A stretch of 64,000 nt of DNA from Membranipora membranacea (Eukaryota > Bryozoa > Gymnolaemata > Cheilostomatida > Membraniporidae): NCBI GenBank assembly GCA_914767715.1, contig OU612069.1, forward strand, positions 6,448,001 through 6,512,000, written 5' to 3'. Positions within the stretch are counted from its first letter, which is position 1. Each line of letters starts with the position of its first letter. A model generated the notes under the pieces. That model worked only from the letters and a program-made list of their open reading frames with translations. It made no database searches and was not told the origin of the DNA. Made by a program: the position numbers and the translations under genes. Shown here piece by piece: positions 1 through 56,814 of this stretch.

Positions 1-908
1 TTCCTGCTTTTTTTGGGAATTTCAAAAAAATGAGTTATGGGATATTTTTAAGAACGCCCACGGATCATAAGCCCACCCATTCTAGTTGGGAATTACAGAA
101 TGGTGCATCATGGGATATTCTTTGACATGCCCAAAGTTTGCGTTATGGGGTATTCTTTAATACGCCCTCTTATTGGTATCCTGTTTTGACGACACATAAT
201 CTGTACGAATCAATTTATAGAGAAGAAAAGAGTACAAAATATCCGGAGAAATCTCCGGCGCTGTAAGGCTATAATTTCTGATATCAGTAGTGAAAACAAC
301 CGAGACGTTCATTATCAGGGTGAGTGTGAACCATAGACGTAGGCGTAAACTTGGACTTGGACTTGGACTTGGACTTGGACTTGGGCTTAGTATGAGATGT
401 TACATGACTGCTGTTTCCATTTGAAGAGAAAAGCATATTGTTGTATCTTCAACTGTAAGATGTGTGTGTGTGTGTGTGCTTTTCACGGGTGTCAATCAGG
501 ACAGCCCAACCTGTAGTAGTCTACACCAAGTTTGGTCCATTTGCGGGCGTGATCAGTTGAAGGAAGTAACTGGAATGCAGGCAATTGGATTAAACATGAT
601 CTAGTAGTAGTCGGACTATCTGGCGGAGCCCTTGCTTTTGCTTTGCTAACTTTTTGTTTTATTCAACATCTAAATTAATGGCATAAATATTCAAAAAGAG
701 AAGAAAAAATGCTTTTTGGATATCGACAATGTCAGCTGACAGTTACTGATTGACTCCTTGCTTCTGTATTTTGTGCTGATTTGATCGTAAAATGAGTTTA
801 TATTACTATTGCCAATTCTTTTAGCTATTCATAGATGCCTTATTGGAGAGCGTCAATTTTTCTTTTTAAATACTGGTTGGACTGAGTGATTGTACTTTTC
901 TATTTTAG
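1..908 (+). other. Upstream intron/flank with simple repeats; no exon called
   Basis: A degenerate sequence of the form ATGGGATATTCTTT..ACGCCC occurs three times, near 36-60, 108-133 and 143-168. A (TTGGAC)n tract lies at 350-388 and a (GT)n tract at 462-478. CCGGAGAAATCTCCGG at 243-258 is an inverted repeat. A GTGAGT at 320 could close a tiny upstream exon (about 291-319), but nothing confirms it. Confidence 0.5.
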
Positions 909-17524: not shown

Positions 17525-17541
17525 GCCATTTCTCAGAAACT

Positions 17542-18408
17542 ATGGAGCAGAAATTTAACCATCAACTGTTCTGTGTAAAACAACAACTGGAATCTTCCAT
17601 CAACCAGAAATTTGGAACGTATGCAGAGGTTGCTGGAAAAACACAAAGTCACGACACTGGTGCACATGTTTCCCCCTTCATACCAACACCACACACTTCC
17701 ACTCAACAAAACCAGGCAAACCCTTTATCCCGACCACTATCCTTCCAATCCCACGGCCGGCCTTCCCCTTCACCACACCATAGTGGATCACCAAACAATA
17801 ATACCCTTCACAGCAGAAAGTCAAAACTCAAATCATCCAGTAAGGACCAACACAGCTCAGACCATCCACAGTCAACGCATAGAGAACCATTTGCACCTGA
17901 AAGAAACATTATCGTCAATATTGAGAAAGACTCAGCTTTCCATTTAAATTACAACCAAGATATTACTCGACAAGAGATCTGCAAACATTATGGTCTAGTG
18001 ATTGTAGAAAAAATAACGCCATATAAGTTTAAGTCAGATCATCCAAAACTGGCCATTCAATTTAGAGATACTGCTGCAGCTATAAAAATTGTAACGGAAT
18101 GGAATTGTCTCCTCTTTGGTGGATCGACTGCAAGGAGACCACAAGACCCCAAGACTCAGAATTTAAACTGTGCCATGATGTACAATGTCCCTAAAGAAGG
18201 CAGTAACAATGATATAGAGCGAGATATCAAAGCAGTTTATCCGGAGGCCACTATTGAGAGACTCTCAAAAGGTGGTAAGACCTTGCGCACTGTGAAGGTA
18301 AAATTCGCATCACAAACTGACATGAAACACGCTATACACAATGGTATACCACTCAAATCTTTATTCATATATTGCCACCTATCAGAAATTTCAACTCCAA
18401 ATGTCTAG
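17542..18408 (+). CDS. LINE ORF1, 3' part (frameshifted, about 288 residues)
   Basis: It continues the coiled coil (MEQKFNHQLFCVKQQLESS), then a low-complexity S/H/P linker, then a roughly 130-residue C-terminal region from RNIIVNIEKD to the stop. That region has the alternating pattern of RNA-binding LINE ORF1 domains (RRM/CTD-like; inferred). Its stop TAG (18406-18408) overlaps the ATG used for ORF2. Confidence 0.75.
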   Translation: MEQKFNHQLFCVKQQLESSINQKFGTYAEVAGKTQSHDTGAHVSPFIPTPHTSTQQNQANPLSRPLSFQSHGRPSPSPHHSGSPNNNTLHSRKSKLKSSSKDQHSSDHPQSTHREPFAPERNIIVNIEKDSAFHLNYNQDITRQEICKHYGLVIVEKITPYKFKSDHPKLAIQFRDTAAAIKIVTEWNCLLFGGSTARRPQDPKTQNLNCAMMYNVPKEGSNNDIERDIKAVYPEATIERLSKGGKTLRTVKVKFASQTDMKHAIHNGIPLKSLFIYCHLSEISTPNV

Positions 18409-22647: not shown

Positions 22648-22730
22648 TTATGTATGTGTGACAGTCCACTTATAATATTCATCAGACTGGACTACACGCT
22701 CCCCTCGTTTTATCATTATGACTTCTTTCT
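22648..22730 (-). CDS. Last coding exon of the ROCO-caspase gene
   Basis: It follows a strong acceptor (TTTTTTTCTAATTGTAG), enters in phase 1, and encodes EKEVIMIKRGERVVQSDEYY and six more residues before TAA (22648-22650 on the plus strand). It gives the protein a basic/aromatic C-terminal tail absent from ordinary caspases. Confidence 0.75.
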
Positions 22731-25700
22731 CTACAATTAGAAAAAAATCTGATGACAACAGATAGAGATTATTAAATTAGCAGATCACTTCTACTGACAG
22801 CATTCAGGATTATTTTGGATATAATTATATACATTATGAAGTTATCGTCAGATGCCCTGCTCATCCATAATAATATCTTTCACTTGCCTCATTTATAGTA
22901 CATGAGTCATAAATACAGTATCATATAAGCATCCAAATAAGAGGAGTGCGCTTACCTAGAAGTGGTTCAATCCTAGTAACCACCTGGTTTGGCACATTCG
23001 CAAACATCTCAGGTGAGCTCTGAATTTGGACTCCAGGTAGCAGATACAGTTTTCTCAGATTAGTGAATGTGCAGACAGTTTTAGGCATCTGAGAGACATA
23101 AGAGGCAGCAGTGGGAGCTGCAGCAGCACCTCTGTTCAGGTTCTGATCTGTTCTCTCCACTCCATATCTTGTCACTGATTCTCTTACCTGCAATTTTGAT
23201 GGTTGAAAATGGTAATGCATCATCTGTAAGAGTTTGAGTGACTTCATGATCGGTTAAATGATTTCAGAGAGTGTAAGGTTGAGTTATATTTGTGAAAAAT
23301 TAGAGGTGAGAATGACTCCGATCAAGAGATTTACTTCAATTGATGCATCAGTAGTTTAGAGTAATTTGGGTTAGTCAGTTGAATTTAAAGGCACCGTTTG
23401 TTTTCATGAAGAAATATCTTAATATGACAGGGAAGTTATGCAAAACTTACTATCTCAGCCAGAGATACAACATCATGCCTATGTCCCAGGGTGTAGAAGG
23501 TCGCCACCAAAGCTCTGATGAAGGGTGATCCAAAGGCAGGGTTCCTTGGTGCAGCAAAAGCTACAATAAAAATACATACATACATAACAAATCCATTGAC
23601 CCATTAATAAGTAAGGGGGCTGTAGTTCTGTAAATTTATAGTGGAAAAATTCTGGACAAACTTTAAATGGTATGAGGAACAGTCCCCTCTAGTGCGATGG
23701 AATCATGACTTAAGTACTGTACAACCCCAAATAATTGCCAGTTCTAGACTTATATTGCTGAACTTTTCTGCTGATGAATACTCACAATCAAAGCTGGACT
23801 GCATAATGATCATATCTGATACAGATATGTCTTGTATATCATTGTCCACTTCAAAGTCATTAGAACTCGGCATTGTCACAACCTGAGTGCTGCTATCAGT
23901 TTGGGGAGCTCTAACAGCTGCTGCTCCAGTATTGAGGTCGTCTCTCAACATTTCCCGATTACCTTTTTGAAAACAGCGGATGTGATCATGAACTGCAAGA
24001 CTTAGTAGATATGCTATAACCCTGTACTGTATTGTATCACTTTCTTGATTTTATAAGCTAACTGCCTTGTTGTTTATGTCCTTTCAGTTTCAACTTCAGA
24101 CATAATGTTATAAGCTGCATTCTACTTAAAAACAAAATCTGGTGCTGCTGCCTGGTATTATTTCTAATTCAAGTTTAACAATACTTACTGCCAGCACATG
24201 CTTGTATGATCACAATCTTTGGTCGGCCTCTCATCACAGAGAAGTTCTTAGGAGACAGTAGATTGTAAATATCCGTTAGTCTGATGAAGACTCTGTCAGA
24301 GCCAATAATACAGCCCTCGTCTCCATGACTGGTTAGAACGAGTACAAACGCCCCCATATGCTTGTGCACTGATTGGCCGACTGGATCTGTTAACTGTGTC
24401 TCGCAGTGGATGGCTTCGATGATTTCCTAGTAAAAGAAAACTAACATAAGCACTCCATAAAAGGTTTAGGTTCTCAAATTATTGGATGAGACCGTTTACT
24501 GCATTAATGTCATAGAGCGGTTACCCTGGAGCGTGGTCAGAAATTGTCAAGGAGGGATGATTCTAAAGCCTGGTCATTCGTAGCAATCAATCGTACATGT
24601 AAACAATTCACAGATTGTAAATGTTTAGCTTACCCTTGCAGTGTAGGTTTTATGTTCACCTACAGTAACAAACCCTAGTTTATCAAGCATACACTTGAGA
24701 TTCGAATAGTCATGTTCAGAACCTCTCCTGGTTTGGTTGTAGTCGTTAGAGACAATCAGAGCACGTCCTCGACATTCTGTCATCTTGTAAACAGTCTAAA
24801 TATAATCAGAAAATAAAGCATTGATGATCTTTGAACTATTTTGTTGCCTCGTAAGCTTTAAGATCTGAAAATTGTACCAAAGAACTTCCGAAACACAGCT
24901 GTAATTATTCACTTCATAGACACAGCCTTCTAAGTTTGTGTGAAGACATGAAAATATCGATCAAAATCATAACAAAGTAGCAGCTTTATAAACCTGGCTT
25001 TCAGGGATTAAACTCTGATCTGCTTGTTGTGGTTCCATATCTATCTGGGGTTGCCTTCTTTTCATGATCTCCACTACATCCTGAACTTCGGACATCTGGA
25101 TCTCTGGTATGCTCTGGCCAGGATCATCTGCTGTGAGAACAGGAGGAGGGTCAGGTTTCACATAGTGCTTATTAGAATTTGAATTTTCTCTGCCTGTTTT
25201 CTTTTTACCGTAGAAACCAAGTTTCGTATGATTAATTCAGTAAAAGAGAGCTGTTGACTGACCTGATCCCGCAGTTGTCTCCTCCCTTCTTATGTAGTCA
25301 TCAAGAATTCTGACTCCCTCCTCACTGATCTTAAGACCTGTTTGAAACAACAGCAAAAATGGCAAGGTTAGCACCCCTATTGAAACAATCACTTGGTTAA
25401 CATGCAATCCCGAAAATTAATGCTACAAATGGTAACAAATGAATTAATCGGATCTGCTGAGGCAGATAATGATATTTTTCCATGAACTTACATGGATATC
25501 TGAGAGGTAGCGGGACACGCCTCCTCCCATCGTTGGTGTCACATGGACAAGTCTCCTCTCCAGTGTAGGTGGTATGACGGGGCTCTGGCAGTTTGTATCT
25601 GACACGCCTGTTGAACCACTCAGGATTGACAAATGTTGCTGGTGATGACTGTTTGGTCAGTAGGCAATGAGAGCAGTAGAAGACATGGTCATATCGAACT

Positions 25701-28700
25701 CCTTTCCACACAGAATCCAATTCAGATGTAAGCCGCTTCATTGTTTCTAGTTGGGTCTTCCAAGCATCGCTGATAAGCCTGGCCGGTGTTTGCGTGATGA
25801 GTGTCACTTGTTTTTCTTTCTCATTATGCAATAGATACCGCAAGACTCCGTCCATCTCTTGCACACTCGCTCCATTTATACCAGCTTCAGGTGTGTTGAA
25901 TGGATTGACGCATATGTCTAGAAATCTTGCAGTGATTACATGATATACATATTGCGGAACGTTGAGGCCGTTCAGATACAGATCGACTCTCAGCTGAAGG
26001 TGATTTGTGCCTTCTGTTGGGTTTGGTATGTTCTTAGTGCTGAAGTAGGGAACGATGAACTTCTCACTGCCATCACTTTCTATAGGTCCACAGATCAGGT
26101 GAAATGTTTTCAGCAGCGTGATACCAACATCAACAGGTAGTTCCGATTCATTGCTGAGCAGATTGTGAAGTAATGCAGCTCTTATGATTCCTGTGGCTTT
26201 GAAATCATTGACCATGCTGACATACTCTCTTCTGTCCACAGGTCTTTCCTTATATCTGTAGGGTCTAAATTTGGTTATGCGATATTCCCATGCTTGAGCA
26301 TCTGCATGATCGTAAAGTGTCCTTATGACATCAGCAAGAACTGAAGGGCGATGGAATAAATAGTCACTCAGCTTCTCAACGTCCTGAAACCACATTATTC
26401 TTCCTGCTTCTTTGACATACTGCAAAGCATGCTCACTGTTCTTACTGAAACGTTGTATGAATTCAGTAACAGAAACATAAGGCTTTTGCTCTTCAGCAGT
26501 AAGCTTATTCAGCACTTCATACCAACTACCGGGTATATCAGTGATCAGCTTAGCCCCTGCTTCCTTCAGTGCGCTCTTTAGTGATTTGATATCCATCTTG
26601 CTCGATGAAGCCGAGAGCTCTAGTATTGTTGTGATCAGGGGCTGTGCTGTGTCGATGAAACATGTCATAGAGAAAAATGAGCTGTCAGGCATAGCAACAC
26701 CCTCTTCTGATTGAATTACATCTACACGCAGCTTCTCTGTTGCTGATAAAAGCTGGTTCTTCCTCAGTGTGAGGGTCTCGTTGCTAAGCAAATCACCATG
26801 AGTCAGTACGAGCACTGGTCTTCCTAGGTTTGGTTGTGATGTATATAGGTGCGCTATCCACTGGAAGCATACATCCTGAGCTGCAGCCTCTACTCCATGC
26901 GCAGGTACTAAACTGTCAAACTCTGCTATATCTACCACTAGAAGTGGTACAGATTGTACTTTGGCGTTCACTTGGTAGGCAAGGTGATACACCTCATGCC
27001 CTCCCAAATCAGTGAATACCAACTTCAATTTCTCATCAATGTCAGCCTCGCATACATTGAAGACACGTGTTGCCTCATCAAGCTTGATGTCGATATCGGA
27101 ACGGGTTGTCAGCACACGCTGATCCTTCTGTACGCTCCTCACAATGCTTGTTTTTCCTGCTTTAGTCTTGCCTATGACTGTTACCGGAATGAGTCTGAAA
27201 ATGTTATCTTTTTCAGCATGAAGATCATGCAGATACTTCCTTACAGCTTCTATACCCTGTATGCAGACAGCATAGGGAGGAGATACTAGTGCTTCGCAGT
27301 CGTCACATTTGAAGGACTTTAGCGTGCTGATATTGAAGATACTTTCAGGTATAGAGGGGAGTGACCCGTTTCTTCTAATATCAAGTTCTTCCAGTTTGGT
27401 GAGTTGCCCCAGGCTGTTTAAAAGATAAAAATATATTTACTTTCAATCATAATGAGCGTTGCCGACATGGGGATGAACTTTTAGTCATGACTAGACAAGT
27501 GCAAGGTACAGTGAGTGGTACGGTGGGTTGGCCAAGGTTGCACAAGAAGATACAAATGTGTTGAAATTTGGGGAAAATGGCGCAGTCATTGCAGCCTCGC
27601 CCTCAAGGCACACACTATTTCGCCGCCACGGTGTGGTGAGTGACTAACCCTTATGATTTTAACCAACATTTTTAAAGCCAACTAATGACTTACTACTAAA
27701 TTGTGAGTTTGTTACTTGCAACAGGGCCAAATGATATCCAGCATCACAACACCCGCTATCCCAGCAAATTAAAAAAAAAGTTTACTTTTATTTATTTTTC
27801 AATGTAATGCAATGTAATGTAGAATAATAAGTCATTCTTTCGTTTGTTATTTATCACTTCTGTTGTGACAGCTCATCCCCACCCTATTGATTTGATCAAA
27901 ATTGTAGCGCTGATTGTTTTTCATCCTTTTGCTAATATGCTAATCAATTTCAACCTAAGACCACCTCCAGTATGCAGTAAATTTATTACTTTGTGAGGCC
28001 TTACGTTGCATTCTAGGCTTTGGGGGTCGGGGTTACTCCCTGAACCCTGAATCGGGGGTGTGGATGGGGGGGGGGGGGGGGGGTTACAGCGCTTCTCCCA
28101 AAGCTGAGATTAATTGATATTACTGTGCTGCACAGGATAGTCTACGATGGTGGCAGGTTCACATTCAAAAGCTAGAAGTCACTCCTGTTTAGGGAGCCCT
28201 GATCTGAGCAACCCTGATTGTCACAATAAACAACATGGAAAATGAATTATGGTGATCTACTGACAATATTAGTAAAATTCAAAGATCCTTGAACTGAGGA
28301 AATTTTAAATTTGATAGGCCACATAATCATGATAACAGCGTTATTTCGCTCTTTTTTTCAGTGACAAAGTTCTCTTATTCACTTGTAATCGGCTACATTT
28401 AGTTATTTTTACAGGATAATACACACTTGGCATCGTAACTTTCAACATAATCTTACTTGATAGAGTTGAAAGTCTCAGATTCTCACTATCAAAAAACTTG
28501 TCTTATTGACTTACTGTACAAATTATTTTTATTTTTAATTGGTACACAGTTGATTTATTATTACATGAGGTGATGAGGACTAACTAATTTGCTAAATATA
28601 GTCTCATCAAACTGCATTTTTGTTCTGGTCGATTTTCTTGCTAATTGCCAAAAAGAGATATAATTAATCAAATTAATATTATGCCTTATTGATAACTTCC

Positions 28701-31700
28701 CTCATACTAGGAAAGGTTGCTCCAACATAATAAAATGATAATAATAATAATGAAAATTTCGCTAGTTATAATAATGATAATATGTTTGTATTATGCACAT
28801 GTATTATTGGATTAATAAGTATTGCCCCTCATGTGAATGGAAGGAGACAACTCAATAGAGCGATCAAGATTGATACAATATCTGATAGTTATTTTGTATC
28901 AAGTTTGCCCTGTAAACTTAACAAATTTAGAAAAGGTTACAGTCCAGTAGACCTAGGATAGGTAAGATGTACTCCATCCCATAGAAAGCTAAGTAAAGTA
29001 GATATTTCATGTCAGCTTGGAAAAGCTCCTTTGGGGTATGTACTGAAATGCCGATAAACTGAAAACCCAACATTAGGAGCATAGGGCACCATTGAAAAGT
29101 GCTGCTTTGCACCCTCAAGGATTATTACTTTCCCTAGATTTTTTATAGATCAGTTTTTGAGAATTGGCACCGGTATTGTGATATTTCAGACAGTTTAAAT
29201 GACACATAATATTATATCGAACCTAATTTCAATTCGGTAAATTGCAATTGAAATCTGTACGCAGCATTAATTTGAAGAGTTTTAAGATATAACATCCTTT
29301 GCTGGTGTCTTACTGAACATTGTTCCAGTTATGCATCTTCCAAAATACTATTTCCAAGGTGGTATAGAAACATTGCGGCAGCAGAAACCATATCCCATTA
29401 CACTCATGCTATTTGTTGAGAGGACAATCCAATGCTCTAATATTAATGGAATGAAAAGTATCACCATTATGATGAGAAAAAGCACTGAACGTTGTGACAG
29501 TTTTATGAAAAAACATTACCACAATGCATCTCATTTTGAACATTATCAGTGGCTATGAGGTGGTTGTCACAGCATTATAAAACAAACTTCATGAGATGAT
29601 CATAAAATAATGCTGTAGTGATGGAAGAACTGTGATGCTATAACATTGTTAAAATTGAATACTTTTTGATAGCATGATCATAACATCATGAAAGTGCTAA
29701 TTATAAGCTGTATTCTCACATTTAACAGTGATGTATCATCATGTCAAAAATAATTTTTGACTAATACTAAGAAGCAAAGATTCTGCTATAACTGAATCTG
29801 AACATTGTGATTACCATTCTATATCCTATTAGACAATAACCCAATCCTATCATTTACACACCATGTAATACTTGAAAAATTTGTATGCGATACGATGTTA
29901 CAATGTTCACCGTTTGCTGGGTTTTTGACATTCATTTTTTAACAAGAAGTCAAACAGTTTTTAGGTTATGGAATATAGGGATCACAAAAATTCTCAGGGA
30001 TCAATATATTATTAGCATTTATAAACTTGGATTGTCAGCATTGTGATAGGTAAACTATAAAAAAATCCTTTTCTTTTATATCTACTGGTAGGTACATATA
30101 ACAATTGTCTTAAACAAACTGCTCACATGGATTTGTAAATAAAAGGCAATATCTCCTTGTCTAGCATACTCAGCAAGTCATCATGGAAAAGGTAATAAAA
30201 CTGCCAACACAGGTCTCCAAAATTTAAATTCACACTTCCGCTTTTAAATTTTACTAATCGCAGTCACGTAGATATGTTGGTGGTTGGTTGTTTGACTGAT
30301 CTAAATACAACAGCTTTATTTTCAGTTTTAAGGCTTTGTATATTTGGTATTTATTGCAGGTCATTGCCATCATCTTAAGGGCAAATCCTCCACCTGTACC
30401 ATTTAAATATTTACAGACATATCCAACTGTCAACAAATAGTCCATTGAATTAATGAAAGTGAAAGATTTGAAAGAGTTCCAAAAAAGTCGCCACCTCCAT
30501 AAATGGGGTGCAATCATAGACTTGATTATAAACCTAGACATGACACTATATGGATAGTGAGGCACTAAGGGACTTAATTGTGGGCAACAAACGTCATTGG
30601 AAGGTGTAGAAGCAATAATGCTATCATTGATTTTCCGTCCACAATCCAGGTTTTTTAATCATAACTAGATCAATTTCGATCGGATTTTGAGTTTGAAAAT
30701 TACAATAGATTTAGCAGCTTATCTCATTTACGGCAAAACAGATTTGGAAGTCAGTGACCTGTTACCCCACAAACTTGATATACATATAGAAAGTCTTTTG
30801 TTCTGCTACACAAAATCCACAAGAAATTTAGAAGAATAGAAACAAAAGACAGTGGAAGTGGATATTCTAGTTTGTATCAACTGTTGTGTCATTTGATTGA
30901 AAGCCCAGCAATTTTGAATTCGGCACCCTATACTAGAATTAAATGTAAATGCTAATTTCATGTATTTAATTTGGCCCTCAAATCGATTCCACACCAAAAT
31001 ATGGAAACATAGTGATTTTGAAAAATAATTTCAATGGGCAAAAATTGTTGCTAAACTGAACTAATACTAAGCAAAAGTAATGGATAAAAATTCATGCAGC
31101 AGCAGGGGATTTTTGTCAATTGAAACTATAATACCATCCGAAAATTAACAAGTGTTATTATTAATACACACAATTAAATTTTATTTTGATTCTGTAAGGT
31201 TTTGGTAGCTTTGGTCTTAGCCTTGTATGATAGGTATAAAGTTTCCTTAGCAAAACTTTTCAAATTGTTGATAATCCAGAGCAGCAGCATTTCACTCAGG
31301 ATAGCAGCATAAGAGCTGCAACAATTTAGTATCCAACAGTTTCCTCTACTCTTTTTTCTCTATGATACTTTTGAATTTCTAGCCACAAGCTGGTATTGTT
31401 GGTATGTCGGGTAGATTCAGTAGGCTAGTGAATTCGCCATAAGGGCTAGGGGACTTTGACCCTACCAATTTTCAGCGTGTCAATTTTGAAAAACCTCTTG
31501 TTTTTAATTACCAGGTGCCCAGAGGGCCTCATTGTGAGATTATTTGGATGTATGAATGGATTACGCTAGTTTACTTGGTGCAATAGCCAATTACCATGAT
31601 TTTCCCCATTGACTGCCCTTAAAAGACGATATCATCATGTATTCCTGTGATGTAGAAAATATGTCTTTTATATGTTCCTGCCTACAATCTGAGCGAATAA

Positions 31701-34700
31701 CTATAGCCAACGTCGCTCGGCACTGATTTTCTTCATCCTTGATTTGGGTACACCAATCTACACGTATTTACAATTAAGACCAATAAAACAATGGTTTTTT
31801 ATAAAATATTCAGGCAATCAAATTTGAGTCCATAATTGCAAGCAATTTGATATGGTCTTCTACTATTTAGCTAAGCTGCAGGAGTGAACTCTCACTGCAG
31901 GAGCCATCGAATGTTCTCAGAGTTGACAATAACAGGATAATCTCATTTATTGAACCCACCATACACAGACCATTTATAAGAGATTTTATAAAGGAACATT
32001 ACACAGGACACTTTTATGTGTAAATACCTAGAGATAATAATCGGCCTTCCCTCTATTCTTTCTTGGGGGATGAGGCATCAGCTCCATTGTAATTGAAATG
32101 TAAATGAAATTATTCTAAGGAGACAGGAGACACCTATACTTGTTTATGTGAACAAACTCATAGTAGTTCTCACAAGATGATGTCTCAATAACAAACCCAG
32201 GTGAAATCACCAAGCAGGGTTTATGGATATGGTTAATCTATCACATTGGGCCTATTTTAAAACTGGCAATACACGGTATACAAAACACGTAAAAAATTTG
32301 TAGTTAAGTGTTAATAGCTGAGAAGAAATGTGTTTCCCTGATCTGACAAAACACTAGAGTCTAGAAGTTTTGAAATATTACAACATAATGCAGTGCAATT
32401 GCTGTGTGTGCCCCTGTGCGATGTAAGAAGGTTGAGATACATTGCTTGGATGCTGCTTGAATTTGCTAATCTGTGACAGGGATTTGCGAGATCTAGTTTC
32501 TATTATCAGTGCTTATAGTGTTGGTTGATGTGTTAATTTACTGTAAGGTTATGATCTGGGCAAAATACTGAAAGTTGGTGGCTTGAAGTTAGAAGAGGCA
32601 AGCTTGACAAGTTATCTTATAGGTATTAAAAAAATTAAGGGTGTACTGTGGTCACATTAACCCCCCTCATGTGTACTGAAATGACTTAGGTAAAATAATG
32701 AATAAATCTGCCGGTCCCTGAGACTGTCAGAGATGCCAAATCTCGACTGGAGATTAGTGAGATTGTGGGTGCTGTGACAACTGCACGTCATGGCATCGTC
32801 TGGGAAGCAAACCGGTGGTTCTCAAAGGAAAGCCCAAAGGTTAGACGGGAGATGGTAGTTGATGAGGTGCGCAAGATGGAAGAGGAGCGCCGCCAGACAC
32901 AAGCTGTAGGCCAAGCCCAACAAGGCAGGTGGACTTGTTGGGAGTCTATTGAGCAGCGTCAGCTCAAATGGACAGAAATGTGGTCGATGGAGCCACAAAG
33001 GATCAGCTTTCTGGTTGGTGCAGCTTATGATCAACTACCGACCCCGGCGAACCTGGAACGCTGGAATTTGACCGAGAACTCGAAGTGCGCCGAGTGCTCG
33101 GCCAAGGGCACACTTCGACATATTCTGTCGAATTGCCCACAGAGCCTCGGAAGATACACATATAGGCATAATCAAATCCTGAAATTGTTGTGTAAATATG
33201 TCACGGAGAAGTGTGAATATGCTAATGCTGGTGGTGAAGCGCGTGAAAAGATTTTGCGCAAAAAGGGATTGATGAACAACGGAGAATGGCAGGTGAGATG
33301 CGACCTCACAGAGCAGCTCAGCATGCCACAGCATATTGTGATCACGAACCGAAGACCAGACTTATTTTTCTGGTCTGACAAAGAAAAAGCACTAATACTG
33401 ATGGAATTGACGGTGCCTTGGGAAGATAATCTCTCAAACGCGCATGAGAGAAAACTGACAAGATACAAAGATCTAGTGACACAATGCCAAGAGGTTGGAT
33501 TTGCGAATTATTTGCAGTGGAAGTTGGCTGCCGTGGATTCATAGCTAGATCAGCTACCAAATTTCTGACTAGAGTTGGGCTGTCGGGCAGAGAACTCAAA
33601 CAAGCCACAAAGAGCATAGTACATGAGGCAGAAAGCGCATCCGCATGGATTTGGCAACAGCACTGTGTGAAGACAAAAGCTAAGTAATCCTATTGCTTGT
33701 AAGCTGGGGTTTAACACACTCACTTTGTTTTGTGGAGTTGGCCAGCATTTAATTCCTTGGTTTATAATTCTTGTAAGGATTAGATTGAGGGGATTAAGTG
33801 ATGATTAGCAAACTGAGCGGGGGTAGAAGGCTAAGAGGGATTATGCCTTTATTACTCCAATGAAAGTAGTGTAATCTCGGCAGGGTGAAAAACCAAAGTG
33901 AGTCTGTGTTAGATCTAAGGCATTACAAACATAGGCAGGCAGAGCGATACAGGAGATCACAGTCAGCCCACTGGCTGTAGCGCATACAAGTCATCTCTCT
34001 GACTTGTGTATGAGTTGTACTATGCTCAATGTGATGAATTTGAGTTGTGAACTATGGCACGAGGGGCGGGTGCCTTAACGATTAGCAATGTTGCGCCGAT
34101 GAGTTGAAGGAAAGCAAACCTCTCTGCACTGGTTTGGCTTAGAGTATAAGCATGAGAGTGATGGGGCGAACATTGTTACACTGAAACAATGACGAGTTGG
34201 CAGCCTCCCTGGTTGCGCAACAGCGTAAACACACCAATTATGTCAAACCACCGAAACTGACAAAATGCACTGAGGGATCGATGAGATTGATTGAGAGGCT
34301 CATCAACACACAGGGGTGGCTTCATGCTGCTGGGGCCGGCCATGAGGAGGTTGTACTATAGAAGGCCTCGAAACAGCGTTTGACTCATGGTTTCTAGCTG
34401 AAGACCTGTGTGTTGTGCAGCGGTACGCGCACCACTGTATGTTGTATCTATCATGAATTAATCTGCCGGTCCCTGATTGGAAACCCAATATTTCTCTGTC
34501 ATGTGGAGGTTTCTAAATCTACTGGTTCTTCTATCAAACCTAGGTACTTTTCATATTCTGCTTTCACAATTAAATATGGGTTCAATTTTCATATTAGGAA
34601 CAATAATCTAATTCAGCATTCGATACTCATAATCTGATATTACTCTAAGTGATGTCATGTTAGAAGAAAATACTACAGGTTCACATCAAATCTTCATTGT

Positions 34701-37700
34701 CATATTAATATTGTATCATTGTATTGTGCTGAGTGTGAGGCCTCCATACGATTCAATGCTTTTCATTGGTTCAACTTTTGGTAAACAATAGAATCCTTTA
34801 AATGATGTGCCTCATTCTTTCCAATAGAGGATAAATGTAGCGTGTCAGCTTGCATCCAAAGTTTATATGAGAAAATTGAGAATAAATTTTAAGAAATGCT
34901 GCATAAAATGAAGGGAAAATACGATAGAGTGACCCTATATGATTCATCTATTGGCAACGTCAAAACAAGGTCACACAAAAAATTTGACGCTTCTAGCATT
35001 TGTAGAAAAGCATTTCAATTGAGTCATCTGGTTAATAAAAGTTAATTTTTTGCCAAAATTCCATCATGTTTTATGAAATTCGTGATTTTTTGCATTGATT
35101 TCGTGGATTAAATAGTAATTAAACCACCAAGCCTGGACAATAACCTCCAATCATTTTGTGATGATTTCTGCATCAAATTTAAAAAAATGTAGGAGGAGAT
35201 AAAGAGGAAACCATATAAGTCACAGAGAAGCAGAAATATCATCGTGTTGATAACAAGACGCTGATGTTTGTAAAGCAATTTGAAACTCGAAATACGATCA
35301 AAACTGATTGAGTTATGAACATAAAACCTAAATTGTTGACAGTAAATGATAATATCATTGCTTACTACACCCTCCAATGATGTTGCGTTATCCACAATTG
35401 AGTGCCTCACTTCATCTATATGTAGTGTCATGTCTAGGTTTATAATTAAGTCTATGGGTGCAATTGATTATGTTACAAAAATTAATAAAAATTTGTTATC
35501 ATATTTCAATTAAGGTGCAATAATCTAGCATTCACCCTAAAATATTCAGCCTATATCTTGCTCATAAAATTGGTCACAGCGTTAGAGTGTCACAATACAC
35601 AAATTAGTAATATTTACTTCTAAACTTATCCGTGATAATTTATAATCATTAAGTTGAGGGACTAAAAATCATACTGCTAGATATTTTGTTATCACTCGCA
35701 CATACAGATCTTCTGCAAATAAGTGTAGGTATCTTTACCAGTTGGGGATGATCTAATGACACCATTTGCCGAACAATCAAGTAGGCCTATTGAAATTTTA
35801 AATTTCGGAATATTTTTCCATAAAGTAATTGTTATTATTATAATAACCTAACTATGGATTTAATTACTTCTTTTTATGAGAATAATACGGAATCTTCAAG
35901 TGGGAGATGTGGGATGGAAGTTAACAAAAGTATTTTGATATAGAAACGCATATTATTGTGATATGGTTATTAGATTATTTTGAGTAATAGGAAGGCTTTC
36001 GGTTAGAAGATGTGTCTTTGCCCATTTAAGCCTGCATTACAGGACTTAAATCCATTTTTACAGCACAAGTTGAGCAATTGAATTTGTAAGAAATTAGATT
36101 CCTAATTTAGCGATATGTTTGTTGGTGTATACTTGTGAAACAGATAGTGGTGTGAACTTGATCAGTGCGGCCAAAAAATGAATTTACAGTAGTATTCATC
36201 GTATATATGTAGCAAATTGGTACATATTGAATTTAATTATTTTCAATAACTTGGACTATGAGCCTGTCTGCCAACATGTCTGACAAACAACAAAATTGAT
36301 AAGGTGATAACAACAGTAATCGTTTTGTCTTTTTGTCCTGTGACAGTAATTATTTTATCTTTTTGTTTTTGTAAATACTTAAAGAGAAATTAAGAAAGTG
36401 TAGCGGGACGTCTGGCAGTTCAATGATTCTATGAAATATCAAGCTGTGTTGATACCTTTAGTCGGTGTTGATTTTTAATTTTAAGCACTCACCACCAGTT
36501 AAGTGGCTGACAGGATACCCAGCCGTCAGCCTGTGTCCATGCGGACACAGTTGGGGGGACAACCTGTGCTGGTATAGACGGAAGGGCAACTTGTTTTAAT
36601 GGACAGACAAATTTTGCTGAACAGGCATGGGCGGATAGTCAAAACGGAATGCCCAACTTCTTCAGCTTGACCCGAAGCCTTTACCGACTGGCCCCTAGTG
36701 AAATTACATTGTTGCTAGCATGGTGCGAAGTTGCCATAATGCTGAAAACAGCTTAAATTAAGAGATTGTATGTGTATTATCCACAAGAAGAGATGTTAGA
36801 GCCCGTGTAAAATTTACACAAATTTGGAGCAGTGCAGTGCTCTAAACAGCAAGATTGCTCTTGTATGATGACTGTAATGACTAAATACTTTAAAATACCA
36901 CCTGTATTACTGACCCTTAAGGTATAGTAACGCCTAAAAAAAAGTTGTCCAAATTAGTTGATTTTGGCATATATGGAAGACCATCTAGGTAGGAGTATAT
37001 TTCTATGAGAACCGAGGACGTAACGTCTTTTGACGTCACGTCATGACTGCACGAACACCACGTATTTTGCTGGAAAGAGAACTTTCAGGCAGCTGTAGCA
37101 TAGAGATGGAATTGGTATTCTTCTTGATTTTTGTAAAAACGATTTATAAAGAAGGTGAGGTTGAATTATTTATCATCATATTCCTTCAATTTGGCTCCTG
37201 AGTGCTTTTTTTGTGCACAATGAAGTAACGCATAATTATGTGCCAGACATGAGGTTTCTTTTTGGTGTCCTCACAGCTGAATTCTAATCTGACAACATAA
37301 AAAACCCTAGTTAACAATTCTAGAGACTACAAAATGTATATATATGGAAAAAATATTCTCCTGCATAGACTTTGGGAGTGGATACCACTGTGTAAAGGAA
37401 AGTAATATTTGCTCATTAGCTCAACTGTGCATTTAGTTATTTATCTAACACAATTTGAGCACCTGACATGATTTATTGTATCTGTTGCATGCATTGACTC
37501 CTCATGACAATGCGTGAGCATTGTGTAATTGATAAACGATCATTAACGCTCTACAAGCTCTCATTTCTATCAGTAGGGGATGTTTGATTATTTTCTCAAT
37601 GACAAAACATGGTATGATATGGAGTTATTTTTCTGAAGATATAGAAGGCCTCAGCCTTGATTGATTGCCGGTTATTTTAGTAAACCAACTGATAACAGCG

Positions 37701-40700
37701 GCGTGATGTTGCTCTTCAACTTAGCTACCATAGCAACCATAGCACCTCTCAAAGTTGACCTACTGAACACAGGAAGCAAATCTGCTCTCTGGGAGTGACT
37801 CACCTCACTTATCCCCTTTGAATTCCATATTCATATTTCTTGGAAGGTGTGAGTTATGATTTCAACTTTGTTTTATGATGGTTTTTGACGAGTTTGGACA
37901 TGTTTATCCAAATCTGTGGCCAATAATACGACATAATCTCCACTTCGGTAATCTGATAATATTTTTTTATGAATGAAACAGAGATGGTTCCGGTTGACCT
38001 AATTTGATGACCAATAATTTGGGAATCAGCAGGATATTTCAACATCAGCTGTAAAAAAGACAGAGTGAATTGTCTTCCTCCTGACATTGAAAAGACAACT
38101 TTGTGCATATTTAGCCTGTTCTGTCATATTCAAATATCCTATTGTTTCATGATCAATGCTGTCATTATCCTCTTATTGTCATGCCCAAAGCAGTTGTTTG
38201 TGTTATCAGACTGCTATTACACCACCATTTCCAGCTGATAGCTGATTTCACACACTGCTGGTATAGCTCGTTGCGTCATGCGCAAAGTGTGAATAATTTC
38301 ATTCATAAATAATTTTCTCGCGCTCTGTTTCATAGTATTCGTAGTAATTGTAGTAAATACTGTAATTAGCAATAAAAAATAAACTGATGAAGATATTGCA
38401 AAAAACTTTTTTGTATAAGCAATAGTTTCAAATTACCTATCCGACCATAAAGGTATTATGAAAATTCACCGACACCGTTACTGTACCTTAATTGAGCAGA
38501 CCTAAATAGACCTAGATGAGCATGCATGCAATGACTGGTTCACGTTATAGCTTGAATTCAAAAAAACAATCATAGCAAGCAAGCATTATCACATTTACTA
38601 CACGGCAATTAGACGTACTTCTTGTGTTACACTTGTTTAGACAAAGAGGGGAATAAGTGACAATAACAGCAGGTAATCCCATTATTATGTCATAAGACGG
38701 ATCACTGTAAACATCCCTCAATCTCTAGCCCATATTTGTTGATACTCACTTTCTTTTGCCATCATTGATCTAAGCCAAGATCCTGCCAATGCGACGCCCA
38801 TCGAATTAAGTCACGATATATCGAAACAGTCATTCAGAAACCAATCTGATCAAACACCTGTTTTCTCTTGACATACTCATTTGAGAACAAACTACTGTTA
38901 GCCTGTCTAGCATTCCTGTTTAAGGAGAGCGAGTTGTGAAACTGCATGAAAATGACAAAAAGAGGAGGCAATCTTACTTGGAAAATATCCAGTCATGTCT
39001 TTTCTCTTTACAAGAGAGCTCCAATTCAGAATCGATTAATCAAACTTAATGTAGACGATCAATTGAATTGTGTGCATGATAAATATTTGTAGAGTTTCCA
39101 AAAAAATATGTATACGCAAAATCAAAATCAGAGTTCCAAACATAATGTTTTCTTCAAAAGACAGTTAGTCAAGTTTATCACTGTTGTCAGGGGAACATCA
39201 CGGCCACTGGGATTTTATAAAAAAAATTGAAAAGGAATAAATCTATTACAGAATAGGTGCTCAATTAGTCTGTGTCCCAATCTCTTACAACTCAGATGTT
39301 TCGGTCCAGCGACCAGCAATGCATAATAAGTAACACCAAACAATACTTAATAACTCTGTCAAGCTATGTAGGCCTATTAAGATACAATAAAGGTCATTTA
39401 AAATATGTGTGGTAGCCAGTCATTACGAAGTGCAGTTAAGTGAAGAAGTTATGTTTGTCATCTAACATGTGAGCTCTTTGTTGTTTGATCTCAAACTAAT
39501 GCTGTATGCAGAACATGCTTGGCACTGAGACTTTTACTCTGAATAGTATAAGAAAATATGACTGTGTATACAGAAGCTTACTGTATTAGCCGAGTGATTA
39601 CTGAAAATAAGCGAAGGCTCTAAAAAATTATTGATCCTACTAATCTGTTACTTTCCATTGTACAGAGGCAGCTAGAGCTTGATAGTTGTATCATCACGAA
39701 ATGCAGCGGTGTTTCTTAGATCAATTAATCATTGCTATACAGGCAGCTGAATAGAGTGCAATATTGTGGATTTAAGGTTGATTGTATGATGAGATAGATC
39801 TTGAAGAAAAACTTCCTGAGAAACTTATCCCCCTTGTTTTACAAAACTGTGCCCATTTTTTACGTCAACAGGTTTTTTCAATTTATCCTAATTAATAAAT
39901 GTTTTATTGGGCTTCGTGAAATATTAAGCGAATGAAAGCAGAATTAACATGGAATCACTGGTTGCCAAGAAATTCACATGTGAAGTTTGTTCATGCGAAA
40001 GTTTACAAGATCACTTTGCAGTGAAACTAAGCCAACAAATAACTAAGTACTAAATTGTGAGTTCATTAATTGCAACAGGTCCAACTGATATAAGTGTCAC
40101 TACAGCTGCTATCCCTACATAATCAATAAAAATTTAACTTTACTTGAATTTTCTCAGGCATGACCTCATCTTGGCCGATAATGAAAAGTGATAAGTTGTG
40201 CTTTTTTTTCAGTTATCGTTATGTTGTGACAGCTCATGTTTGCCTCATTAATTGTTGATTGTTTTATTCGTTTAATAATTTTCTAATGAAGTTTTACCTA
40301 AAGCACACCTCCAAGACAAAGTAAGTATATTAATTTGTATGGCCCCGTTGGAGGGGAGGGGGGGGGTTACAGCGCCTCTGTCAAACCAAAAAAGCTTTAT
40401 CTGTTTAACGCAAGAGTTTGTTTGGTGTTCCAATGCGCTGCACAGGATAGTCAATGATGCCAGGTTCACATCTGAAAGCTGAAGATCCCTCCTGATTAGG
40501 AAACCCTAACCTGAGCAACCCTGATTATCACAATAAACAACATTTTAAATGATTTAAATTTAGATATGTTTATAATCTTAGCAATCTTAGAAGTTGTGCC
40601 CATCTCATATTTTCTTAAAAATTAGCAATTGATAGATCATAATGGAGTCATTTGCACAATGATCATGTTATTGATGTTCCTAAACTGATTTGGTAGATCA

Positions 40701-43700
40701 AGCAATATTTATCAAGCTGGTCTACATTGCCAAAAAGAGCAGCACCAACCTTTCTTGCACTAATTAACAACAGTCCAAGGCTGTGAATATCATCCAAAAA
40801 CTCTATTGATGTGATCACTGCTGGCCTGATTCATACCTGGGGTGTATTGCTATGTAGGCGAATTGAGATTTTCAATCCAAGAATATTTCTTGCCAAAGTA
40901 ATTGCTATTATTATAATTACCAAATTGTATATTCACTTAGGTTTTTTATAAATACAGGATTTTCGAGTGGGAGATGTGGAGTGAAAGTCATCACAAATAT
41001 TTTCCTGAATTTATATCAAAAAATATATTATAAAATTACGATTATTAAAGTACTGCACAGCTATCGGTGAGAAACTGTGTCGTGTGCTTATTTGAGCCTT
41101 CATGACAAGAATAAGTACCATTTTTAACAGCATGGTAAGAGCGTTTGAATTTGTAAGAACAGAATTCCTAATTTGGCAATACGTGGGCGCAGACTTGTGA
41201 TACAGATAGTTGTGCTATGATCTGTGCTGCCCAAAATTACTCATTATTATTATGATTTATTATGATATTCATTGTTTATTTGAGCCTATTGTTACGTATT
41301 AAATGAGATCATTTTCAGTTACATAGACTATGACCAGCCTGCCAGCATGTCCGACAATCAACAAAACTAATCAGGTGGAAACGACTGTGACAGTAATTAA
41401 TTTCCCTTTTTGCTTGCGGTATATACTTTTGAGAAATAAACTGCTTTAGCTCATCATATAGCCTCATATCTGACTGTGCATCGATACAATGGTAAATCGT
41501 TGATTTTTATTTTTAAACACCCACCAGAGGTGTGGGGCTGATGGGATTTCAAACTGTCCACCTGTGTCAATGTGTCCTTTGCCCATCTGTCGGACACATT
41601 TGACGGGACAACCTGTACTGAAAAGGCATAAGCAGATGGAAAATTTGTTTTAATGGACAGACAGTTTTAGCTGGACGGATAGACCAAATTTAATGGCTAA
41701 TTTTTTATCGGCTCAATGACCTCCTCCCACTTGCTCTAAATGAAATTACATTGGCGGCAAAGCGTTTTTGGACTGATCAATTTAACAAGCCACCTGGGAA
41801 AGAGGTACGTGTTGGGTATACCATGAATTGGTTACATTTTTTATAGAAACAGAGGGGCAACAAAAAATAACATAGTATACCACCTGTATTATTGAACCTT
41901 ATCGGAACAAACCTAAATAGACCTAGATGAACATGCATGCGATGGCTGGTTCATGCCGCAAAGTTAAAATTAAAAAAACGCTCAATTCATCCTAATATCG
42001 CACCTATATGTACTTCTTGTGACATGCCTCTGCAGACAATAATAGGGGAATGAGTGACAAAACAGCAGACTGATCAGTTTAAACATTCTTCCATCTCTAG
42101 CCCACATTTAGTGAAACTCACTTCTTTTTGCAATCATTGATTTAAGTATCATTTATTGCCAATGCAGCGTCTATCGAACCAAGTCACAATTTATTGAAGC
42201 AGTTATTTAGAAACAAGTCTTTGATTTGGTCAAACACTTATTTTCTCTTGACATACTCGTGAACAAACTACTGCAGCCTGTCTGGCATTCCTGTTTCAGG
42301 AGAGCGAGTATTGACACTGCATAAAAATGACAAAAAGAGAAGGCAATGTTAAATTTACAATGTCCAGTTATGTCTTTTCTCTTTACATGAAGCTCCAATT
42401 CAGTGTCCATCAAATTGTGTGCACGATAAATATTGCTAATATTGTTAAATTGTTGATAACGAATCGTAATATAATTGCATATGTATGTGCTTTCATTTTT
42501 CTTGGGCCTAATTAAATCGATGATGCACCAACCAAATTATTTGCACTTAAAACCGGATTTCCCAATTTTAAGTTGGTGTAATGAGGTCAGACCTATGTTG
42601 TCCTGACCTCTTTTAGCTTCGCAATAGAGAATCGCATCTCGCTTACTCAAAGGTACTACTGTTGCAAGCATCTGACTCACATGTTTTTATCAGATATTAA
42701 TAGGTATTTCTAGTGATGCAAGTTACGTTACTCAGATGTGAATCTCGATCTATAATTGCTGACTAAAAATATAAGCTTCTTTTACAAATATAAATGCTGA
42801 AAAAACTGACATTGCTAGTGATGCTAGGTGTGCGATTCAGTTTAACAATTCACAGTGACATTTCACTCCATCCATAAAAATTTTTTGGAACATTCACTAG
42901 ATTTGGCTTCTGCCTGGTATAATTGGTATAAATTGATACTCAACGCATCAAAGACAGATGCTATGACAGTGTCTAATTTTGATTTTGATTTTCTCAGACT
43001 AATTTCTCAGAGCATGTCCTTCATGCACTTCAAACAAATGTAAATATTTAGGAGAAATTTTAGGTAAAAATATAAATTTAAAATCCCATGTCATTGAGAC
43101 AAAACCCATTCATAGCAAACTTTAAGAGAAATCATGTTACTCAAAGGTAGCAAACTAATTGTTTACTGACTTATGACTCACATCACTGACTTCTCTCCTC
43201 TACTGGACTGTCCTACTTCATTGTATATTAGCCATCCTACTCCGTTTGTATTTTGCATTTGTTACCATGTTTTGGAGAGTACCCAGCCCCCTTTACCGTG
43301 CTTGGCTCCCGGCGCCTTGTTGTGGTTGATTTTAGCGCATGGGCAAGGACTTGCTACCCTGATCTGGTCTCGGATGCCTTGTGACCTGGTGTCTGATAAT
43401 CCACTGGAAACCCCTACAGTGTTGTCCCAGATTACTAACAAAAGTTGTCTTTCAATTTTTCCTTATCCTCCCCCTTACATGTTAACAACCCACTGCTGAA
43501 AACCCTGTGATTGTGACAGTGACGCCAAAACCCCCCTTGAATTGATCCCTTGCGACTCGTGGCTGTGAAGCTATACATAATACCTAACTGTAGCATCTCT
43601 GATAACTGATATACTGTTATTTACATCCAGATAATCAAGTCTCACTCTGTTATCACTACACAGCATATCGCCCTTGAAAGGAGACAACTACTCCGACTGC

Positions 43701-43915
43701 GATCAACCTATCGGAAGAATCGGAAGAATTGTCCAAACGGTCTGATATACTACCGTTGTGAGCATCTGACTCACCTGTCTGGAAGGCTGGTCAAGCCACA
43801 GCTGCGAGCCTTCATAGTCTTCAATGATTGAATTTGCCCCAATCCTGCAGGTAATTTCTGTAGGCCCTCATTCCAACTAACGTTTAACAACTCCAGTCCT
43901 GGCAGTGTGCAGATG
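22648..43915 (-). CDS. LRR - Roc GTPase - COR - caspase fusion protein (ROCO-caspase), 5'-incomplete
   Basis: Ten minus-strand exons join in phase to 1,112 residues plus stop: 43915-43775, 27413-25492, 25337-25263, 25193-24994, 24795-24634, 24426-24189, 23962-23786, 23560-23451, 23187-22956, 22730-22648. Numbering from the first full codon in view: LRRs at 1-90; Roc GTPase at about 120-330 with P-loop GKTKAGKT (128-135), DLGGHE switch (182-187) and THGD (251-254); COR at about 340-690; linker at 690-779; caspase at about 780-1062; 50-residue tail. The caspase carries RRGSEHD, SHG (His867), QACAG (Cys910), a p10 subunit with PRNPAFGSPFI, and ends MPKTVCTFTNLRKLYLLPG. Known: ROCO proteins use Roc-COR as a dimerising GTPase switch, and caspases are Asp-specific cysteine proteases activated by proximity. 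Inferred: an LRR-sensed, GTPase-controlled initiator caspase. The N-terminus is outside the window or not recognised. The join of LRR and Roc exons across 16.4 kb is the least direct step, but both phase and LRR register fit. Confidence 0.88.
22956..23187 (-). CDS. Caspase p10 C-terminal exon
   Basis: 232 bp, phase 0 in and phase 1 out. It encodes a variable loop rich in A and P, then QMPKTVCTFTNLRKLYLLPG, the typical last strand of p10, followed by a tail beyond the canonical caspase end. The donor is TAG|GTAAGC. Confidence 0.9.
23451..23560 (-). CDS. Caspase p10 exon with S1-pocket arginine
   Basis: 110 bp, phase 1 in and phase 0 out. It encodes AAPRNPAFGSPFIRALVATF; the arginine before N aligns with the S1 arginine of the canonical SWR-N segment, although the preceding Trp is replaced by Pro. 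Acceptor TTTTTATTGTAG, donor GTAAGT. Confidence 0.9.
23786..23962 (-). CDS. Caspase inter-subunit linker and start of p10
   Basis: 177 bp, phase 1 in and out. The roughly 40-residue linker includes DFEVDND, which offers Asp residues suitable for (auto)cleavage between p20 and p10. The exon ends in SDMIIMQSSFD, matching the first p10 strand. The donor is GTGAGT. Confidence 0.88.
24189..24426 (-). CDS. Caspase p20 exon 2 with catalytic dyad
   Basis: 238 bp, phase 0 in and phase 1 out. It encodes FVLVLTSHGDEGCIIGSD with the catalytic histidine (SHG) and ends GRPKIVIIQACAG with the catalytic cysteine. QACAG instead of the usual QACRG is a tolerated variation at the fourth position. The donor is GTAAGT. 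Confidence 0.95.
24634..24795 (-). CDS. Caspase p20 exon 1
   Basis: 162 bp, phase 0 at both ends. It encodes ECRGRALIVSNDYNQTRRGS followed by EHDYSNLKCMLDKLGF, the classic opening of a caspase large subunit including the arginine of the R-x-G-S segment that lines the S1 pocket. The donor is AGG|GTAAGC. Confidence 0.92.
24994..25193 (-). CDS. Linker exon 2 between COR and caspase
   Basis: 200 bp, phase 1 in and phase 0 out, encoding about 66 acidic, P/Q-rich residues (PDPPPVLTADDPGQSIPE; VQDVVEIMKRRQPQIDMEPQ). I see no CARD, DED or death domain in it. The acceptor has a purine-rich tract and the donor is CAG|GTTTAT, both weaker than elsewhere, so the exact borders are less certain. Confidence 0.6.
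25263..25337 (-). CDS. Linker exon 1 between COR and caspase
   Basis: 75 bp, phase 1 in and out, acceptor TTGTTTCAAACAG and donor CAG|GTCAGT. It encodes KISEEGVRILDDYIRREETT, a charged probable helix that may close the COR domain. It can be skipped without a frameshift. Confidence 0.7.
25492..27413 (-). CDS. LRR-Roc-COR exon of the ROCO-caspase gene
   Basis: A single 1,922-bp exon between acceptor TTTTAAACAG and donor CAT|GTAAGT, phase 2 in and phase 1 out. It opens with the last LRR (LGQLTKLEELDIRRNGSLP, then a capping segment with FKCDDCEALVSPP). Next is Roc: VTVIGKTKAGKTSIVRS P-loop, FTDLGGHEVYH as the G3 element and LVLTHGD as G4. COR follows, from about SWYEVLNKL through FLVP-like strands, with a cysteine pair (YCSHC) and CPCD near the end. 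The minus-strand open frame runs on to 25397 past the donor, but the domain logic and phase fit the donor. Confidence 0.93.
32722..34452 (+). mobile_element. 5'-truncated R2/NeSL-type (restriction-like endonuclease) non-LTR retrotransposon fragment
   Basis: The insert is flanked by 24-bp direct repeats (32698-32721 and 34453-34476, one mismatch). The homologous site in copy 5 (about 60491-60513) is empty. It starts in mid-frame and encodes only the C-terminal end of an R2-like protein: a CX2CX7HX4C zinc knuckle (CAECSAKGTLRHILSNC), then RRPDLFFWSDKEK and LMELTVPWED of the restriction-like endonuclease. A frameshift near 33500-33520 moves the last part (VEVGCRGFIARSATKFL to TKAK, stop at 33685-33687) into the next frame. 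A 3' UTR of about 765 bp follows without a poly(A) tail. It is a dead copy. Confidence 0.85.
32765..33687 (+). pseudogene. Zinc knuckle + restriction-like endonuclease remnant of the R2/NeSL-type element
   Basis: Two overlapping frames: 32765-33544 (259 residues, ending in a premature TAG) and 33484-33687 (67 residues). Joined by domain logic, they form the end of the retrotransposon protein. No RT remains. Confidence 0.85.
39791..42530 (+). repeat. Long repeat unit, copy 2
   Basis: 39800-42420 is nearly identical to 47360-49990, with only scattered differences, which makes this the most recent duplication in the window. It carries the poly-G tract (9 G at 40358-40366), the CGGACACATTTGACGGGACA block (about 41603) and the CATGCATGCGATG anchor (about 41931). 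Confidence 0.85.
42531..43162 (+). mobile_element. Decayed LINE fragment (RT palm remnant)
   Basis: Around 42900-42975 the plus strand encodes ASAWYNWYKLILNASKTDAM, the helix after the YADD motif in LINE RTs. At 43040-43100 it encodes KYLGEILGKNINLKSHV, the next conserved RT segment. Frames are broken between them. Sister remnants lie at about 44265, 44810, 55420 and 56430. Confidence 0.6.
43163..43738 (+). other. GC-richer 0.58-kb insert beside the LRR exon, origin unknown
   Basis: The related copy at about 56690-56720 runs directly from the left to the right flank without this block, so it is an insertion here or a deletion there. It contains a 108-codon open frame (43173-43499) with no recognisable domain. 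Confidence 0.45.
43775..43915 (-). CDS. LRR exon (47 codons, phase 2-2) of the ROCO-caspase gene
   Basis: On the minus strand it follows TTTCTCCTCCACAG and ends AG|GTGAGTCAG. It encodes two leucine-rich repeats: LPGLELLNVSWNEGLQKLP and IQSLKTMKARSCGLTSLPD. The exon is 141 bp with the same phase on both sides, so it can be duplicated or lost without frameshift. Its end joins the next exon to read LTSLPDSLGQLTKLEELDI, a perfect LRR register. Confidence 0.85.
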
Positions 43916-56724: not shown

Positions 56725-56798
56725 TGCAATCATCTGACTCACCTGTCAGAAAGGCTGGTCAAGCCACAGTCCCAAGCCTTTATAATCTTCAATGATTG
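56725..56798 (-). pseudogene. Truncated duplicate of the LRR exon
   Basis: The minus strand reads QIQSLKIIKAWDCGLTSLSD and then AG|GTGAGTCAG, matching the last 20 codons of the LRR exon at 43775-43835 including its donor. Upstream (at about 56798) it breaks into sequence belonging to repeat copy 5 (GCAGCAGGTTCACATTT). The remaining frame is open, but it has no acceptor, so it is an exon relic. Confidence 0.8.
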
Positions 56799-56814
56799 AA
56801 TTTGGTTGCAGCAG

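Follow-up and report, generated by a model that had tools for sequence, protein, structure and literature searches.

The locus studied here raises the question of whether one animal gene can encode LRRs, a Roc GTPase, a COR region and a caspase in a single chain and, if so, how such a protein might work. It lies on the minus strand, at 43915-22648 of the window, i.e., of the whole stretch of DNA analysed (64,000 nucleotides, C5:6448001-6512000, from chromosome 5 in the Membranipora membranacea genome of 339,339,785 bases). An earlier note on this DNA had described ten phase-matched exons, and all ten could be rebuilt: all introns have GT-AG borders, the exons join in matching phase, and together they give 1124 aa of open frame with a TAA stop at 22648. 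Along the predicted protein, the order is LRRs, Roc GTPase, COR-like region and caspase (Table 1). The true N-terminus is beyond the model, farther upstream, and was not located. Exon 1, which sits 16 kb from exon 2, was assigned by its phase, its LRR register and a 74% identical exon in paralog L012, where it precedes exon 2 by some 5 kb. Concerning exon 4, a Pfam scan of this linker/prodomain gave nothing apart from C14, and a 42-aa piece in L017 was 43% identical to it. The SQMPKTVCTFTNLRKLYL stretch of exon 9 resembles the caspase C-terminus. A chance open frame was ruled out by the Pfam matches together with the paralogs of the same chromosome, 12 of 12 of which have exons 2-9 open and gap-free.

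Table 1. Exons of the predicted LRR-Roc-COR-caspase gene and a related remnant, in window coordinates.
Feature	Position	Strand	Evidence
Exon 1 of the model (gene starts earlier): LRRs	43775..43915	-	AG/GT borders, phase fits exon 2
Exon 2: last LRRs, predicted Roc GTPase (~aa 121-330), COR-like region (~aa 331-687)	25492..27413	-	Pfam Roc, sub-threshold COR-A, Roco structure matches over Roc
Exon 3: linker with SEEGVRILDDYI motif	25263..25337	-	Homologous linker exon or motif in L017, L021, L024, L027
Exon 4: linker/prodomain, without known domain	24994..25193	-	Gap-free in 12/12 array paralogs
Exon 5: predicted caspase p20 start, first putative S1 arginine (TRRGSEHD)	24634..24795	-	
Exon 6: predicted caspase p20, catalytic His (SHG) and Cys (QACAG)	24189..24426	-	
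Exon 7: Asp-rich stretch, p20/p10 boundary	23786..23962	-	
Exon 8: predicted caspase p10, second putative S1 arginine (APRNPAFGS)	23451..23560	-	
Exon 9: predicted caspase p10 end	22956..23223	-	SQMPKTVCTFTNLRKLYL present
Exon 10: C-terminal tail and stop codon	22648..22730	-	
Upstream, probably the decayed copy of an LRR exon	56751..56804	-	tblastn against L012 exon 1: 78% over 18 aa, E 7.8e-6

Outside the gene, the plus strand of the window contains, at 890-5032, two long adjoining frames of 600 and 779 aa that share a phase, have one stop between them and are rich in Ser, Lys and Pro, and, at 16280-21169, what by eye is a non-LTR retrotransposon, in which other frames precede one of 947 aa (18326-21169) that looks like an endonuclease/reverse transcriptase. 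Similar retrotransposon pieces were seen by eye at 9951-10985, 32702-33544 and 50021-50614.

The domain content of the predicted protein was analyzed with Pfam profiles. Peptidase_C14 matched aa 788-1009 with an E value of 1.6e-25 (90.6 bits, cut-off 21.4), and the closest solved relative of the caspase part was CED-3 (E 1.7e-14). Roc was only just above its cut-off (27.2 bits versus 27), COR-A stayed under it (24-26 bits versus 35.3), and every LRR model fell under its own. Of the profiles that the earlier note had proposed, those for caspase and Roc gave matches above threshold and that for COR did not (24 bits in that comparison). The motifs named in that note were all present: the P-loop GKTKAGKTS, the G3 motif DLGGHE and THGD in the Roc part, and SHG and QACAG in the caspase part, where the catalytic Cys is C910; two arginine positions are taken here as the S1 arginines. 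The Pfam scan of the model showed no kinase, ankyrin or death domain, the caspase being the only match C-terminal of COR, and neither NACHT nor NB-ARC. The profile of the exon 2 family matched the Roco structures 3dpu, 6hlu, 8r4b and 4wnr over the Roc part, and LRRK1 more weakly. A COR-only profile gave no Roco match among solved structures, and single-sequence structure prediction of exon 2 gave no usable fold (pLDDT 34.7). By its Roc domain with G1, G3 and G4 motifs, the predicted protein would be of the ROCO type, and by its p20/p10 with the His-Cys dyad and putative S1 arginines, it can be assigned to the caspases (Peptidase C14A). Its C-terminal layout differs from those of the LRRK, MFHAS1 and DAPK subfamilies and would place it outside them. 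It also stands outside the NLR class proper, which has a NACHT/NB-ARC ATPase, though an NLR-like way of working is possible.

The gene belongs to a family. A search of the genome for the caspase family gave 145 matches among the 140 of 515 candidates scored, forming 140 clusters, which is a lower bound; with the window and later stretches included, 30 of these clusters were covered by the analysis and 110 left out. Twenty-eight loci were chosen at caspase matches, namely 20 (12 of them in the array of the window itself) plus eight picked for long frames, and in 26 of the 28 the caspase was preceded, on its own strand, by Roc and/or COR (only COR, in the case of L022, within the stretch analysed). 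Two loci, L025 and L026, have a caspase and no Roc in the stretch analysed, L025 reading IDC instead of QAC at the catalytic Cys. The search was also run from the Roc-COR side, scoring 69 of 325 loose candidates. A listed caspase match was found no more than 8 kb downstream in 25 of the 69. For the other 44, the downstream side was inspected in 11, all of which (11/11) showed caspase-type exons, and 33 were left out. Taking these 11 together with L040, which is among the linked 25, 12 of 12 downstream stretches encode a caspase, with QACQ at the active site in ten, the window type in L035, and one p20 exon only in L033. The Pfam C14 cut-off was passed in 11 of the 12, either by a joined exon pair or by a single exon; in L033, with one exon in view, the score was 20.2 versus the cut-off of 21.4. 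The p20 exons of L031, L038 and L040 gave no Pfam match when taken alone, and their p10 exons did match.

The number of Roc-COR-caspase genes is thus at least 49 (25 + 11 + 13, the latter being analysed loci outside the list of 69). Family totals are lower bounds; the family consists of dozens of genes, and hundreds are possible. In the chromosome-5 array, 12 of 12 paralogs showed exons 2-9 open and gap-free with GT-AG borders, save for one acceptor; in three of the 12, exon 10 was truncated or beyond the stretch. The exception is exon 2 of L006 (C5:5292400-5302300), whose acceptor is CG, not AG, and this copy is possibly non-functional or uses another acceptor. A further member, L041:642-7901 (C11:3042800-3050700), has one frame, at least 2420 aa long, in which 77 counted near-identical LRRs are joined to Roc-COR, and a QACQ caspase (L040) is found downstream of it. 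A scan of viral contigs for family relatives gave nine pattern matches, none of them a relative.

Pfam Roc matched at E<0.01 in 15 of 15 representative paralogs (alignment A1), and COR-A in 9 of 15. The P-loop, G3 and G4 were kept in 26/26 Roc-linked rows covering them, the catalytic His and Cys in 27/27, the first putative S1 arginine in 24/24 covering rows and the second in 20/21 rows with any cover, the miss being L019, covered only before the Arg. SHG varied to THG in L013 and to GHG in L016, and the surroundings of the catalytic Cys to QSCSG in L018 and QTCSG in L028. Near the COR-like end, a CxHC motif (C580, H582 and C583 of exon 2; window 25664-25675, minus strand) was invariant in 15 of 15 paralogs and is perhaps a metal site. 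The caspase could be thought of as a pseudo-enzyme or scaffold, with other partners doing the signalling: QACAG, QACSG and QACQ differ from the usual QACRG, and regulators that resemble caspases but are inactive, cFLIP among them, are described in a passage of PMC8195603. However, the full retention of the His-Cys pair and of the first S1 arginine in the counts above, and a p20 dN/dS of 0.33, make this improbable, and the complete caspase described in the earlier note is the reading preferred here.

It should be considered next whether the ROCO and the caspase parts belong to one gene or to two. In 21 of 27 loci, a splice donor is visible where the COR exon ends; in the six others (L013, L014, L018, L019, L020 and L028), the COR match breaks off short of the end of the exon, so that no donor is seen. 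An AG was present at the caspase match, or within about 15 nt before it, in 27 of 27 loci, which by itself is weak evidence because AG is common. L021 and L027 have an exon of 185 nt, homologous to exon 3 of the window, between the COR and the caspase exons. Like exon 3, it completes the T|GT codon, its length is what is needed to pass from phase 1 at the COR end to phase 0 at the caspase, and its linker motif reads STITKEGVQTLDEY in L021 versus LKISEEGVRILDDY in exon 3 of the window. Joining the COR and caspase exons of L021 directly leads to stops, while the join through the 185-nt exon gives one open frame. L017 and L024 also carry the linker motif, and a pattern search of the remaining divergent loci found no other instance. 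In the 13 chromosome-5 genes, the linker is gap-free with a dN/dS of 0.35. Among the other loci, L027 has as little as 495 bp from COR to caspase. The Roc-COR distances correlated with those of the p20 caspase (Mantel r 0.90 for 15 representatives, with 0/10000 permutations, and 0.98 for 26 rows).

Such an agreement is expected of a joined unit, yet also of two neighbouring genes, one LRR-ROCO and one caspase, that were copied jointly, since a pair in fixed order would likewise yield co-linear copies and agreeing trees; the Roc-less caspases L025 and L026 also speak for separate genes. What speaks against the pair are the COR-exon donors and the homologous linker exon that restores the frame broken by a direct join, to which the AG near every caspase start, the constraint on the linker and the short gap of L027 can be added. 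The splice borders and the linker exon make a single gene far likelier, and we consider two genes very improbable. So, the LRR-Roc-COR-caspase fusion proposed in the earlier note, found in the same order in divergent paralogs, is a well-supported predicted architecture and very probably a single fused gene, from which one transcript would run through the ten exons.

The LRR part behaves differently from the rest of the gene. In the 13 chromosome-5 genes, it showed a dN of 0.083, a dS of 0.028 and a dN/dS of 2.93, well above the dN/dS of Roc (0.34), COR (0.47), the linker (0.35), p20 (0.33) and exon 8 (0.28); looser parts were exon 7 (0.73), exon 9 (0.82) and the stretch before Roc (0.81), and the COR end had no synonymous difference. 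When the codons of these LRRs were bootstrapped, pN failed to exceed pS in 0.64% of draws. Counted as minimal changes, nonsynonymous to synonymous ratios were 32:4 in the LRRs versus 56:35 in Roc-COR (p 0.0026), and in a second array of 11 genes, on chromosome 3, 38:8 versus 21:25 (p 0.0004). In both arrays, ten of the ten x positions of two xxLxLxx strands were variable, versus 6/39 other LRR positions on chromosome 5 (p 1e-6) and 10/42 on chromosome 3 (p 1e-5), with the predicted exposed positions being set by the standard LRR motif after the alignment had been viewed. In LRR proteins, the x positions of such strands generally face the ligand. In the 77-LRR member, entropy peaked at the same kind of LRR positions.

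The LRR variation could also come from weakened constraint or from exchange between gene copies, and not from selection of new binding properties. An LRR exon has been duplicated and then decayed (the remnant at 56751..56804), gene conversion may homogenise the rest of the gene, and in the chromosome-3 array the pooled LRR dN/dS was 0.97, not above 1, with a raised dS (0.126 versus 0.068 in Roc). Nevertheless, the changes fall on the ten exposed positions while the leucines stay, and on chromosome 5 the LRR dS of 0.028 equals the Roc dS of 0.027, so homogenisation does not explain the LRR excess there. We regard this explanation as rather unlikely, and a diversifying LRR face is assumed in what follows.

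Concerning function, the family probably consists of immune or allorecognition receptors. Our main reading, to which we give a probability of roughly 0.6, is that LRR-Roc-COR-caspase would be a one-component, NLR-like unit of sensor, switch and effector in which Roc-COR controls caspase proximity; for that control taken separately, the odds seem slightly better than even. The LRRs would bind a variable ligand, either microbial or self/non-self, and this would shift the nucleotide state of the Roc GTPase. The oligomeric state of Roc-COR would then change, COR-COR contact bringing the caspase domains together. Caspases are activated by proximity. Those of the family would cut targets after Asp, with cell death or inflammation as the outcome, and the whole might work as an NLR inflammasome without adaptors, in the form of a multi-gene family with diversifying LRR faces. 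The class of ligand, GTP binding, protease activity and the coupling among them are all predictions read from sequence, and the adaptor-free death protease suggested by the earlier note is to be taken in the same sense. Its wording of a GTP-driven dimerisation was too simple: according to parts of PMC6337361, Roc-COR sets the monomer-dimer state of the bacterial Roco protein CtRoco, which is mainly a monomer with GTP and a dimer without nucleotide. Since it is the monomer that GTP favours in this bacterial Roco, the actual coupling may go in the reverse direction.

A narrower alternative is that these are allorecognition receptors deciding colony fusion or rejection, with the caspase killing cells at incompatible contacts. 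M. membranacea is colonial, as indicated in a portion of PMC10290214, and a diversifying face encoded in tandem arrays would be suited to telling self from non-self. The present data fit pathogen sensing equally, however, the N-termini are missing from the gene models, and the titles and abstract openings of the few papers found on bryozoan allorecognition revealed no such receptor. It seems reasonable to consider this narrower role unlikely, and to keep the broader one of an immune or allorecognition receptor.

The relation to NLRs was approached by searching the genome for NACHT. One partial match of 37 bits was found, at C10:1025365-1025529 (27/27 candidates scored), with a single Pfam model and introns ignored, a procedure that divergent NACHTs could escape and whose control was positive in 11 of 14 bacteria and archaea. 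In passages of PMC11508797, NLRs are listed as absent from Ectoprocta (bryozoans), and elsewhere Ectoprocta are counted with both NLR and caspase-1. We infer that the ROCO system may have taken over from NLRs in bryozoans. A bolder version, which we hold tentatively and at somewhat less than even odds, is that nearly all NLRs disappeared in bryozoans and that the inflammasome was built anew there from a superfamily of LRR-ROCO-caspase genes, perhaps several hundred in number, each leading from recognition to protease within one protein, with a GTPase replacing the STAND ATPase and a diversifying LRR face.

If this interpretation is true, there would be an animal immune-receptor class, in dozens of copies, with a caspase carried directly by a GTPase switch of the LRRK2 type, in a phylum on which the literature searched holds hardly any immune-receptor work. 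How Roc-COR signals to an effector is an open question for the Parkinson kinase LRRK2 too; because a protease output is easy to measure, the family would offer a clean test of Roc-COR signalling to an attached effector. With NACHT so scarce in this genome, the family would also amount to an experiment of nature in replacing the inflammasome.

According to the earlier note, no animal ROCO protein ending in a catalytic caspase is known to have been described. The names tried for the fusion were absent from the open literature searched, the nearest being the LRRs-caspase hybrids of amphioxus, and the architecture may already be catalogued elsewhere. The gene is not a singular one, being one of dozens, perhaps hundreds.

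Compared to known systems, the predicted protein shares with NLR inflammasomes (NACHT-LRR plus caspase-1), which act in innate immunity, an LRR sensor, an NTP switch and a caspase output, and differs from them in having Roc in place of NACHT, the caspase in the same chain and no CARD/PYD adaptor. With ROCO proteins (LRRK1/2, MFHAS1, DAPK1, CtRoco), it shares the LRR-Roc-COR order, and the Roc profile of its family matches the structures of CtRoco, MbRoco2 and LRRK1; unlike them, with a kinase or nothing at the C-terminal side, it ends in a caspase, and its COR is divergent. The amphioxus hybrids (PMC2575513) likewise join LRRs directly to a caspase with QACxG, and their main-text description, which is without the words GTPase, GTP or ROCO, would set them apart. 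The Aplysia ROCO-TIR proteins, as they appear in sections of PMC9334734, combine ROCO with an innate-immunity domain in a lophotrochozoan, with TIR where the protein studied here has a caspase. The brown-algal LRR-ROCO family (PMC11378527) is similar as an LRR-ROCO family of proposed immune receptors, with LRR exon shuffling in the algal genes, and the word caspase is absent from the main text of that report. So, it can be said that the general type of receptor, LRR-NTPase-effector, is known, and that what would be new is the pair of switch and effector, Roc-COR and caspase.
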